NCBI GenBank assembly: GCA_026708015.1
Contig: JAPOVT010000054.1
Span: 1 to 64,000, forward strand
DNA length: 64,000 bases
From: a bacterium
GTDB lineage: Bacteria; Actinomycetota; Acidimicrobiia; Acidimicrobiales; Bin134
Reading direction: 5' to 3'
Shown: piece by piece, positions 55,295 to 59,209 of the stretch
Numbering within the stretch: the first letter of the stretch is position 1
Layout: every line of letters begins with the position of its first letter
Notes under the pieces: model-generated
What the model saw: only the letters and a program-made list of their open reading frames with translations
The model's database searches: none
What the model was told of the DNA's origin: nothing
Position numbers and translations under genes: made by a program

Positions 55295-56197
55295 ATGGCG
55301 GTGAGCATCCCGTTTGCGACCGAGCCCGAGGTGGAATACGGCGCGGTGGTGGAGATGGCCCCCGGCCTGCGCCGAGTGGTGGCCAACAACCCGAGCAAGT
55401 TCACCTACCGGGGCACCGGCACCTACATCGTGGGCCGGGGCCGGGTGGCCATCGTCGATCCCGGCCCCGACGACGCCGACCACATCAAGGCCGTTCTGGC
55501 CGCGGCGGACGGCGAGCAGGTGGAAGCCCTGCTCATCACCCACACCCATCGGGACCACTCGCCCGCGTCACAGGCGGTGGGCGAGGCCACCGGCGCTCCG
55601 GCTTATGGGTTCGGGCCCCATCCAGCGGCGGATGACGACGACGGCAAGAGCGAGGAGCGGGGCGATCTCGAGTTCGCCCCCGATGCCGCGGTGGTCCACG
55701 GCGATGTTGTCGAGGGACCGGGGTGGAGCTTCGAGTGCCTCCACACCCCCGGCCACATCTCCAACCACATCGCCTACCGCTGGCGGGAATCAGCCGGAGT
55801 GTTCACCGGCGACCACATCATGGGCTGGTCCACCACCATCGTCCCCCCACCCGACGGCGACATGACCGACTACTTGGCCAGCCTGCGGCTGTTGGCCGGC
55901 TGTCCCGACGACCAGGTGTATTGGCCCACCCACGGCCCCCCGGTCACCGAGCCCCACACCCTTGTGGAAACCCTCTACGCCCACCGACTGGACCGGGAGC
56001 GACAAATCCTGGAGTGCCTGGGAGCTGGGCCGCAGACCATCGCCGAGATGGTGGAGGTGATGTACGCCGACGTGGCCTCAGAGCTGCACGAGCCTGCCGC
56101 CCGCTCCGTGCTGGCCCACCTCATCGCCATGGTCGCCGACGGCCGGGTGGGCACCGACGCCCAGCCCACTGCTGAGGCGGTGTACTGCCGGGAGTAG
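55295..56197 (+). CDS. MBL-fold metallo-hydrolase
   Basis: 300 residues. LLITHTHRDHSPASQAVGEA holds the HxHxDH metal motif near residue 82, ECLHTPGHISNHIAY the third histidine, FTGDHIMGWSTTI the bridging Asp and YWPTHGPPV the last His. The part after about residue 240 is a winged-helix-like tail (IAEMVEVMYADVASELHEPA), as in LACTB2-type endoribonucleases and thioesterase-like relatives. The substrate may be RNA or a thioester. It is 10 bp after the Rv3549c-like SDR, suggesting co-transcription with a catabolic gene. Confidence 0.9.
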   Translation: MAVSIPFATEPEVEYGAVVEMAPGLRRVVANNPSKFTYRGTGTYIVGRGRVAIVDPGPDDADHIKAVLAAADGEQVEALLITHTHRDHSPASQAVGEATGAPAYGFGPHPAADDDDGKSEERGDLEFAPDAAVVHGDVVEGPGWSFECLHTPGHISNHIAYRWRESAGVFTGDHIMGWSTTIVPPPDGDMTDYLASLRLLAGCPDDQVYWPTHGPPVTEPHTLVETLYAHRLDRERQILECLGAGPQTIAEMVEVMYADVASELHEPAARSVLAHLIAMVADGRVGTDAQPTAEAVYCRE

Positions 56198-56224
56198 AGA
56201 AACGGGGGGTGCCGCTGCCGACTT

Positions 56225-56330
56225 GTCGACTAGCTCCTGCACTATAGGGACGGTGAAGTCGATGCGGTACGACTTGCGGGGACCGCTTTGCTGCCAGTCC
56301 ACGTAGATGGACACGTTGGCGTCCTGCACC
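56225..56330 (-). pseudogene. Fragment of the secreted-protein gene (upstream copy of a 106-bp direct repeat)
   Basis: This 106-bp block is about 90 percent identical, without gaps, to 58139-58244, which lies in the 3' part of the secreted-protein gene at 57,959-59,127. On the minus strand it still reads VQDANVSIYVDWQQSGPRKS and YRIDFTVPIVQELVD, against VQDINVSIYVDWQQSGPRKS and YRIDLTVPVVQRLVD in the parent. No complete gene surrounds it. The 292-bp gap between the MBL and AAA ATPase genes otherwise holds the operator repeats at 56408. Confidence 0.75.
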
Positions 56331-56407
56331 ACCGAGCCAGTTCGCTTGCCGAGCAGCCCCGCCACCACCACGACCGCGGCACCATATGAGTCTCGGGTCC
56401 GATTTAT

Positions 56408-56467
56408 AGTGCGGACACTTGATGCGTAATGCGGACACTTAGTGCGTAGTGCGGACACTTAGTGAAG
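56408..56467 (+). promoter_or_regulatory. Three 20-bp iterons upstream of the AAA ATPase gene
   Basis: The core (A/G-rich) TGCGGACACTT occurs at 56410-56420, 56430-56440 and 56450-56460, exactly 20 bp apart. Each unit begins A(G/A)TGCGGACACTT and contains an imperfect dyad AGTG-N4-CACT. The period of about two helix turns places all three on one face of DNA. The last copy ends 11 bp before the TAAAGT -10 at 56478-56483 that serves the ATPase gene, so they are probably the operator for a repressor or activator. Confidence 0.65.
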
Positions 56468-56489
56468 TAAATCGGGCTAAAGTAGGGGT

Positions 56490-57794
56490 ATGGAAGACCA
56501 CTCCGAGCTTCTCCCCAACCCGTTTACGCCCGACTTCGGACGGAGGCCTGCCCTACTGGTCGGCAGGCAGTCGCTCTTGGAAAGCGTTGGACGATCCCTA
56601 TCCATCGGGCCAGATGCCCAGGGATTCACAAGATTGATCCTAGGACAGCGCGGCTCGGGAAAGACCACCATCCTCGCTGAGGTCAGAGAGCAGGCCGCCT
56701 TCAATGGGCTACTGGTGCTCAGTGTTGACGCAGCCACGCCGGGGCTGCTGGATCGCATCTCGTCGTGCATCGCCGACGCCAGGGAACGCTACGAAGCAGC
56801 TGATCCGTCAAATGCCCTCGCCCCCCGTCGGGACCGAAGAATGGCTGGATTCACACTTGGGCCGGTTGGCATCAATTGGCAGGACATGCCGGAGCAGCGT
56901 CCCCGATGGAGCCTCGGGTACTACTTGGAGACCTTGAGCTCATGGGCTGCCGACCAGGAATCTGCCGTGCTGCTCACAGTGGATGAGATGCACGCTGGCG
57001 ACAGGGGGGAACTGCGTCGTCTGGCCTCCGACATCCAAGACATCACCAAGATCAAGGAACTCCCTCTGGGATTTGTGGGTGCTGGTCTTCCTGAGATGGC
57101 CCACACCATCTTGGAAGACAAGAAGATGACGTTTTTCCACAGGTGTTTGCGAAACGGAATGCCGTCGATCAGCCACGATGACGCTTGGCGGTGTTTGCGC
57201 CTCACGGTGGAAGAGTCCGACGGCGAGATCAACGACGATGCACTCCGGCTGATGGCGTCCGCCGCCGCTGACGGGCTGCCTTACAAGCTCCAGAGCATCG
57301 GACATCACGCCTGGGAATTGTCAGGGTCGCCAGAAAGGCCCATCGATGCCAGAGTCGCGGAGATGGCGATTGAGTTGGCAGATCAAGACATGGCTGAGAA
57401 GGTCATTTCTCCGATGTGGCACGACCTTGGGGAAACCGATCAGTCCTTCCTGAAGGCATTGTCGGCGTGCGGGGGAACAGGTGCGCCTCGCGACATCTCT
57501 CACAGACTCCCAGGCTTGACGGGCCGCAGCCTGGCCCGAGCTGAGCGCCGGCTCACTGCCGCAGGCCATGTGCATCGCACAGACGGAGGCAACGTGCAAT
57601 TGGCAGGACCACTCACAGCCGAGGCGATCCAAGGCTTCGCCGCCAGCGAGGCTGACTACGATCTCAGCAACATCGATCCTGCTTCGCTCTCCCCAAATGA
57701 GAGCACCGGAACCTGTAATGCTTATATGCCTCGGGTAAGGGCAAAATGTGTGCTCGCCCGGGGCCACAAGGGCGGTCACAGGTCTAAAAAATAG
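56490..57794 (+). CDS. AAA/STAND-type ATPase with C-terminal winged helix and Cys/His tail
   Basis: 434 residues. Walker A is ILGQRGSGKTTILAEV near residue 55, and Walker B AVLLTVDEMHAGDRGELRRL near residue 155. The sensor segment GFVGAGLPEMAHTILEDKKM and the region after about 310 (winged helix, GLTGRSLARAERRLTAAGHV) resemble archaeal-type ATPases of the Orc1/Cdc6-like STAND group. The last 30 residues have a CNAYMPRVRAKCVLARGHKGG-type Cys-Cys-His-His ending, a possible zinc motif. TAAAGT is 6 nt before the ATG. Three 20-bp operator-like repeats precede it and a 106-bp direct repeat brackets it. Confidence 0.82.
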   Translation: MEDHSELLPNPFTPDFGRRPALLVGRQSLLESVGRSLSIGPDAQGFTRLILGQRGSGKTTILAEVREQAAFNGLLVLSVDAATPGLLDRISSCIADARERYEAADPSNALAPRRDRRMAGFTLGPVGINWQDMPEQRPRWSLGYYLETLSSWAADQESAVLLTVDEMHAGDRGELRRLASDIQDITKIKELPLGFVGAGLPEMAHTILEDKKMTFFHRCLRNGMPSISHDDAWRCLRLTVEESDGEINDDALRLMASAAADGLPYKLQSIGHHAWELSGSPERPIDARVAEMAIELADQDMAEKVISPMWHDLGETDQSFLKALSACGGTGAPRDISHRLPGLTGRSLARAERRLTAAGHVHRTDGGNVQLAGPLTAEAIQGFAASEADYDLSNIDPASLSPNESTGTCNAYMPRVRAKCVLARGHKGGHRSKK

Positions 57795-57958
57795 GCTCGC
57801 CCGCTTCTATGAGCCTCCAATGCTCCAGACTGGTTCTGCTGAGCACGGCTCAACGGATGCTTGCGAATCGGAAGTGGCCACTGTTGAGCGAGGGGACGAT
57901 GCAGCGGGTGAAGGCTGCTGGTGATCGGACGTCGGGGATGTGTGGCGCTCAGCAGCGG

Positions 57959-59127
57959 TCACTGCGTCCACGGGACCGACAGTCCGGCGCGGGTGAGCAC
58001 GGCGGATGCCTCTTGCAGCGCCGCCGTCTGGCTTGGGACCGCGCACCCGTCGAGCTTCGCGGCCTCGTCGCGCGCCCACACAGAGCCCAGCAGTTCGCAC
58101 GCCTTCACCTTCGCCGCCCGCTTCGCCGACGCCGACTCGTCGACTAGCCGCTGCACGACCGGGACGGTGAGGTCGATGCGGTACGACTTGCGGGGTCCGC
58201 TTTGCTGCCAATCCACGTAGATAGACACGTTGATGTCCTGCACCGTCGCGGTGTAGAGCGGGATAGCGAGCAACGCCGGCTTGCTGGAGGGATACCCCCG
58301 GAACAGCCCTGACCGGTCGCACACCCATTCGTCGTCTATCCCGGCCCGGGCCAGGTCGCCCGACGAGCATGCCCGCAGCCACCACGAGCCGGCAGGGCTG
58401 GCGGGTACGCCGTCGTCGCCGGAGCAGCCCACATCCATGCCTGAGAAGTACTGGTCGATCAGGTCGTGGGTGCATGTGAATATGCCCCTGTGCTGATGGG
58501 GGAGGCCTACTGAGCGCTGCTCGCTGGGGGTGAGTCGCAGGATCTGGCCGCCGCCGCCGAAGTTCGGGTAGGAGAGGTTGCCCTCGGGTGCGGTGAGCGT
58601 GATCGGCTCGCAGTTCAGATTGGCCACGTCGGTCGGCGGGGCGCCCCCTTCCGTGTTGGTGCAGAGGACTGGGTTGTCGTTGTTCGAAGAGGCGCCGTAG
58701 TTGAACGGTCCAGCTAATGTGCCGTCCCCGAATTTCGCGGCGTCGCCCCTCGTAGAGATCGTCAAACGGGTAGGGATAGTGTCGCCTGCGGTGGCGAACG
58801 AGCAGAGCAGGAACCAGTCCGCGGCACCGTGGTGGACGTAGGGGAAGCGCCGGCCGTCAGCGGCGGAGAGGTTGCCAGTGCGGCACAACCAGCTGACGTT
58901 CTCTAACCCCCCCCCCCCCCAAACGCGTCGCGTGCACTGTCGATGGCGACAGGGGCCACGTTCAGCGAGTCCTGCGCTTGCGCTTTGCCACTGTCGGTCG
59001 CGGCCAGCATCGCCAAGAACACCGCAGTCGCCGTCACAAGCGCCACGACCCCCAACTTCGAGAGGCACACCCGGCACACGCACATCATCGGGCATCTACG
59101 GCGATCAGAGGGCGGAACCAGTACCAT
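57959..59127 (-). pseudogene. Secreted protein gene, frame broken at a 14-G tract (frameshift or phase-variable)
   Basis: The minus strand encodes a signal peptide (LSKLGVVALVTATAVFLAML then GKAQAQ) in one frame from 59127 to the G-run, followed by a 315-residue body in another frame that begins LENVSWLCRTGNLSAADGRR. Both frames meet at 58907-58920, where 14 C (G on the minus strand) are counted. A 12- or 15-G tract would join them. Here the first frame ends at a TAG just past the tract. The body is Cys-containing and extracellular-looking, ending in VSIYVDWQQSGPRKSYRIDL. TACAGT lies 5 nt before ATG 59127. Function unknown. Confidence 0.72.
58907..58920 (-). repeat. Homopolymer of 14 G (minus strand) inside a coding sequence
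   Basis: The top strand has 14 consecutive C. On the coding strand this is an uninterrupted G-run placed just after the signal-peptide region. Length changes of one or two bases would switch the downstream frame on or off. A sequencing or assembly miscount is the other simple explanation. See the finding on this tract. Confidence 0.9.
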
Positions 59128-59209
59128 AGGCAACTGTAGCTCGCTTGTGGCAGAACCTCAAGAAACTTTGGATTGAGTTTTACCAGTCACCCGACACCAA
59201 ACAAATCAA

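Follow-up and report, generated by a model that had tools for sequence, protein, structure and literature searches.

In Bifidobacterium breve UCC2003, the genes bbr_0113 and bbr_1889 are each split by a G-tract into an ORF carrying a Sec signal and an ORF carrying the pilin body (PMC9187656). In these sortase-pilus loci the length of the tract decides whether the signal and surface-protein ORFs are joined, and they provide the closest actinobacterial likeness to the locus analyzed here. Homopolymer-driven switching in actinobacteria has also been described for the tracts of Gardnerella (PMC11287997) and for phase variants of Mycobacterium tuberculosis (PMC11898584). In Campylobacter, Neisseria and Helicobacter, tens of homopolymer tracts are reported to switch surface and other genes (PMC6321876, PMC5084427, PMC2823697). 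Most work on phase variation has dealt with cultured pathogens and gut bacteria. Here, we analyzed a tract of 14 G found in a 64-kb stretch of DNA (the window) from a member of the Acidimicrobiia. The tract is quite likely to be a contingency locus, at which slipped-strand mispairing would give phase variation of a secreted-protein gene.

The G14 tract and the gene it interrupts

A first-pass annotation of this DNA had described a run of 14 G at which a signal-peptide frame and a 315-residue body frame meet, the two halves fusing at 12 or 15 G and ending at a TAG with 14. The run is present and uninterrupted (Table 1), and it is the sole G/C run longer than 7 nt in the window, where 149 runs of length 5, 40 of length 6, one of length 7, none of 8-13 and one of 14 were counted. 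Fourth-order statistics predict 0.001 runs of at least 14 in 64 kb, against the one observed, and the repeat is thus long beyond chance, as is characteristic of contingency loci. The excess is not visible in a plain 9-mer scan (6 overlapping matches, 4.0 expected), because dinucleotide shuffles were used and the one tract was counted six times.

Table 1. Features of the window, and other tract genes of the same genome, with their positions and the basis or sequence context of each.
Feature	Position	Strand	Basis or tract context
G14 tract, proposed slippage switch	58907..58920	-	run counts (14 uninterrupted C on +)
Signal-peptide half, ATGATG start, MMCVCRVCLSKLGVVALVTATAVFLAMLAATDSGKAQA/QDSLNVAPVAIDSARDAF, reaches tract	58921..59088	-	codon scores, computed products
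Body half, LENVSWLCRT...LSVPWTQ, 315 codons + stop; cysteine-rich orphan	57959..58906	-	coding score +83
Alternative ATG, frame open across 14 G, 378 aa, without signal peptide	59093..59095	-	ORF list, computed products
Insertion of ~3 kb between metallo-beta-lactamase-fold gene and lipoprotein gene	56205..59206	.	congener comparison; boundaries approximate
P-loop ATPase (AAA_16-like), on insertion	56490..57794	+	
Partial degenerate body copy	56174..56335	-	67% over 54 aa
L048, Calx-beta protein			ATG TTG C G12
L040			GGAGGG-ATTGCA-ATG GTG T C14, then signal peptide
L041			ATG T C15
L024, fn3 protein			ATG AAC CAT A C17
L023 and L050, RCC1-type family paralogues			G15 in both, same site
L056, type IIG restriction-modification gene	contig C53, 3840-3852 and 5142-5152		G13 and G11
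L053, another type IIG restriction-modification gene			tract at N gap
L028, phage-integrase-type (tyrosine) recombinase			ATG A C16

The signal-peptide frame runs on the minus strand from the ATGATG at 59088 up to the tract (MMCVCRVCLSKLGVVALVTATAVFLAMLAATDSGKAQA/QDSLNV...RDAF). Codon scores favor frame 0 on both sides of the tract (+14.9 against -10.3 and -28.8 upstream, +10.7 against -23.9 and -14.7 downstream), and the halves therefore join only if the number of G is divisible by three. Indeed, the products computed from the signal-peptide start are 375, 376 and 377 aa long with 12, 15 and 18 G, while 13 G gives 76 aa and 14 G gives 61 aa, ending at the TAG. Codon scores and computed products thus agree that a change of 1 nt at the tract breaks or restores the frame, and the geometry proposed in the first-pass annotation stands.

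One of its statements holds only in part: the frame ends at 14 G when read from the signal-peptide start, but from the ATG at 59095 an ORF stays open across the tract. Such an open frame is what a switch of protein location would use, 14 or 17 G joining the body to this ATG to give 378-379 aa without a signal peptide. The codon score of its N-terminal frame is, however, negative (non-coding), and at 64% GC open frames often overlap one another; a location switch is hardly credible, and the frame is probably open at 14 G by chance.

For the slipped-strand switch, replication slippage would add or remove Gs in the tract, and lengths divisible by three would join the signal peptide to the body. 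A cell with 12, 15 or 18 G would export the full protein (ON), whereas one with 13 or 14 G would make a short dead-end peptide (OFF). The assembly captures an OFF length, 14 G. The ON form is predicted to be secreted.

The body has no family match in Pfam, PADLOC or NCBIfam and, a neighboring partial copy excepted, no homologue among the genomes of the family (22) and of the class (395) or among GTDB and viral contigs. A match in genome G314 (E 7e-4) was rejected as chance, being to an unrelated ORF that by eye resembles a YceI-type protein. The AlphaFold model of the body, computed without relatives, was unusable (pLDDT 39.6).

The gene lies on an insertion that also holds the partial body copy and the P-loop ATPase gene. 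In 15 congeners (L259-L273) the flanking metallo-beta-lactamase-fold and lipoprotein genes are adjacent and the insertion is missing. Being unique to the window's genome in this comparison, the insertion makes the tract gene accessory DNA. The partial copy is 1.9 kb from the body gene, with 120 nt at 56211-56330 that are 88% identical to 58125-58244. In addition, three 20-nt repeats stand head-to-tail at 56407-56466 (TAGTGCGGACACTTGATGCG and variants). A unique insertion holding a degenerate partial gene copy could suggest a decayed pseudogene on transient DNA, with the tract as an accident of decay. This is very unlikely, as the body is open over 315 codons with a strong codon score, both halves are coding right up to the tract, and the tract is one of a class found throughout the genome.

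Long G/C tracts in the genome and its relatives

The window's genome (3.5 Mb, a 67-contig draft, 95.7% complete) carries 39 G/C tracts of at least 10 nt. Leaving out those at contig ends, at N gaps or in impure stretches, 22 clean tracts of 11-17 nt remain. The genome-wide expectation for runs of at least 14 is 0.07 under fourth-order statistics; simple base frequencies predict, by our own arithmetic, about 40 runs of at least 10 per genome. Chance in GC-rich DNA was rejected as an explanation for the class, as run lengths drop sharply at 7-9 and climb again at 11-17.

The clean tracts are found preferentially next to genes for secreted proteins. Across this genome and its congeners, 27/95 lie beside a signal-peptide ORF, against 2/149 runs of 6-7 nt taken from the same loci as controls (Fisher p = 1.3e-10); the difference is large, even allowing for a home-made signal-peptide detector and for the non-independence of paralogous tracts. 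In the window's genome alone, 7/22 clean tracts adjoin a signal-peptide gene (p = 7e-6), and codon analysis indicates that many of its tracts link a start to a secreted protein. Moreover, the class extends to restriction-modification and recombinase genes (Table 1). The PADLOC matches of the type IIG gene L056 have E values of 6.5e-200 and 9.9e-37, and tracts matching those of this gene occur at L096, L125, L070, L089 and L137. In relatives, the tract genes include HsdM, HmaB, fn3 and RCC1 proteins. Thus several genomic tracts lie in surface and restriction-modification genes, as is typical of contingency loci, and the phase variation reading of the G14 tract is supported by where the class lies, namely at the 5' ends of genes for secreted proteins, restriction-modification and recombinases. 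Read from the nearest start, every start-adjacent tract of the window's genome is OFF, a slightly odd result that speaks against phase variation.

Beyond the window, on the same contig (76.8 kb), a 15-nt tract is found near the end of a 324-codon frame (L046:3002-3016, contig C54). The tracts at L024 and L030 (contigs C22 and C29) have a 48-nt upstream flank in common (98%) and different downstream sequence; since these flanks match on one side only, recombination may also act at the tract.

Tract lengths differ between otherwise matching loci. Among tract pairs with flanks matched on both sides, the length was unequal in 12/16. The clearest case comes from three MAGs (JAJDUJ, JAJDYE and JAJDYU) that share a recombinase locus with tracts of C12, C16 and C18 five nt behind the ATG, of which only 16 keeps the frame; the ~880 nt of flanks are identical except at 4 positions, which all lie at one far end. 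In this tyrosine recombinase family, the ATG is followed within a few nt by a C-tract at L186, L188, L193 and L028. At a second locus the tracts are C14, C14 and C10 between nearly identical flanks, and in an fn3 family (ATG-A-Cn-AG) both ON and OFF registers occur among the copies, which have 14, 10, 16 and 14 C. Tracts are also carried by G495, a genome of family f89 with two large contigs of 2.55 and 0.64 Mb, where the signal peptides of tandem paralogues contain tracts of G11 and G14. Some of its tandem paralogous secreted genes (L176 and L175) have one tract upstream and another inside the signal peptide, and at L175 a tract directly precedes the apparent start codon.

This variation between near-identical loci is what slipped-strand phase variation predicts. 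As no relative searched carries the tract gene itself, we infer from these loci that the G14 tract would vary in length within the population. A tract of this length is in principle enough for polymerase slippage, and some full-length protein could then arise from a tract fixed at 14 G, by slippage during transcription or by ribosomal frameshifting; however, variation in DNA length, as seen at the analogous loci, is something that this explanation does not need, and we consider it extremely unlikely.

Across the order, 124/198 genomes have no tract of at least 12, and high tract counts are limited to a few lineages, among them the window's genus, f89 and f91. In two congeners assembled as single contigs, tracts of at least 10 number only 3 and 1; tract richness therefore varies by species.

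Sequencing artifacts, mismatch repair and lifestyle

Illumina reads across G-tracts degenerate into G (PMC9187656). Part of the tract class does carry sequencing artifacts: impure or gap- and end-adjacent tracts occur on contigs C7, C41 and C67 of the window's genome and are many in the congener G003, and reads that run off into G account for the impure poly-G beside N gaps and at contig ends. The impure poly-G stretches in public MAGs are probably artifacts of this kind. At L052, L053 and L054 and at the G003 loci L088-L106, impure poly-G was seen by N gaps, at contig ends and in an AMP-ligase-like gene. A poly-G artifact was ruled out for the class as a whole, since both flanks of a clean tract belong to a single gene, paralogues have the tract at a common site, and the assembly of G495 in two large contigs carries tracts too.

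For the G14 tract itself, a homopolymer length error in the assembly would mean a true tract fixed at 12 or 15 and a gene that is always ON. Homopolymers are error-prone, the behavior of Illumina reads in G-tracts is as described above, and several tracts of this genome border N gaps or contig ends. Even so, run statistics would mark a fixed tract, too, as an extreme outlier, and within the same tract class lengths differ by as much as 6 nt between loci that are otherwise nearly identical. An assembly error is thus unlikely, and phase variation remains our preferred reading.

Regarding the organism, the first-pass annotation had taken it to be probably free-living, which the relatives make unlikely. 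The congener MAG Sva0996 bin134 (G003, MPNQ01000014) comes from the sponge Aplysina aerophoba (PMC5649159). The other congener MAGs are JAJDYE (G011), JAJEGM (G007), JAJDUJ (G013) and JAJDYU (G012), and a relative of the recombinase was found in Candidatus Poriferisocius aerobius. Given these congener MAGs and the recombinase relative, the window's organism is probably a sponge symbiont.

Of the mismatch repair proteins, MutS was found in none, and NucS in all, of the six genus genomes tested. The NucS of M. smegmatis leaves 1-2-nt indels unrepaired, which its authors tie to phase variation (PMC11551767). With MutS not found and NucS blind to such indels, slippage in this genus should go uncorrected. 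The absence of MutS, with NucS alone, would offer a simple reason for lasting tract mutability in actinobacteria.

In a sponge host, switching might be advantageous by evading phage or host recognition. The phase-variable tyrosine recombinases (ATG..C12-18..) may add DNA rearrangement as a second switch. Tentatively, we picture sponge-associated Acidimicrobiia with a large system of two switching tiers, dozens of slippage-switched secreted and restriction-modification genes on the one hand and phase-variable recombinases that possibly rearrange DNA on the other; together they would make up a switchable gene set not described before in uncultured animal symbionts. If the phase variation reading is true, many surface and defense genes would be missing or cut short in published MAG annotations, where they are called pseudogenes or split ORFs, and existing reads could be used to test for variation between individuals of a symbiont population.

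Comparison with described phase-variable systems

The slippage mechanism is classical and already known. In the titles and abstracts of the open-access literature searched, no description of phase variation in Acidimicrobiia was found; neither the lineage nor the extent of its switchable gene set appears to have been reported. The Gardnerella and M. tuberculosis systems are from human-associated species and involve other genes. Campylobacter, Neisseria and Helicobacter belong to a different phylum, while here the tracts are those of a GC-rich, uncultured, probable symbiont and their genes include a tyrosine recombinase family.

As in B. breve, the computed products join a signal ORF and a body ORF through the G-tract. 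The B. breve proteins are LPXTG-bearing pilins accompanied by a sortase gene and have been experimentally tested, whereas the window gene is an orphan on a unique insertion, in a genome with many unrelated tract genes. No pilin domain was found in the body with Pfam, PADLOC and NCBIfam, and the LPXTG motif is absent from it, its C-terminal end being ...ALQEASAVLTRAGLSVPWTQ. Judged from its sequence, the window protein would work like the B. breve switch while standing outside that pilin family.
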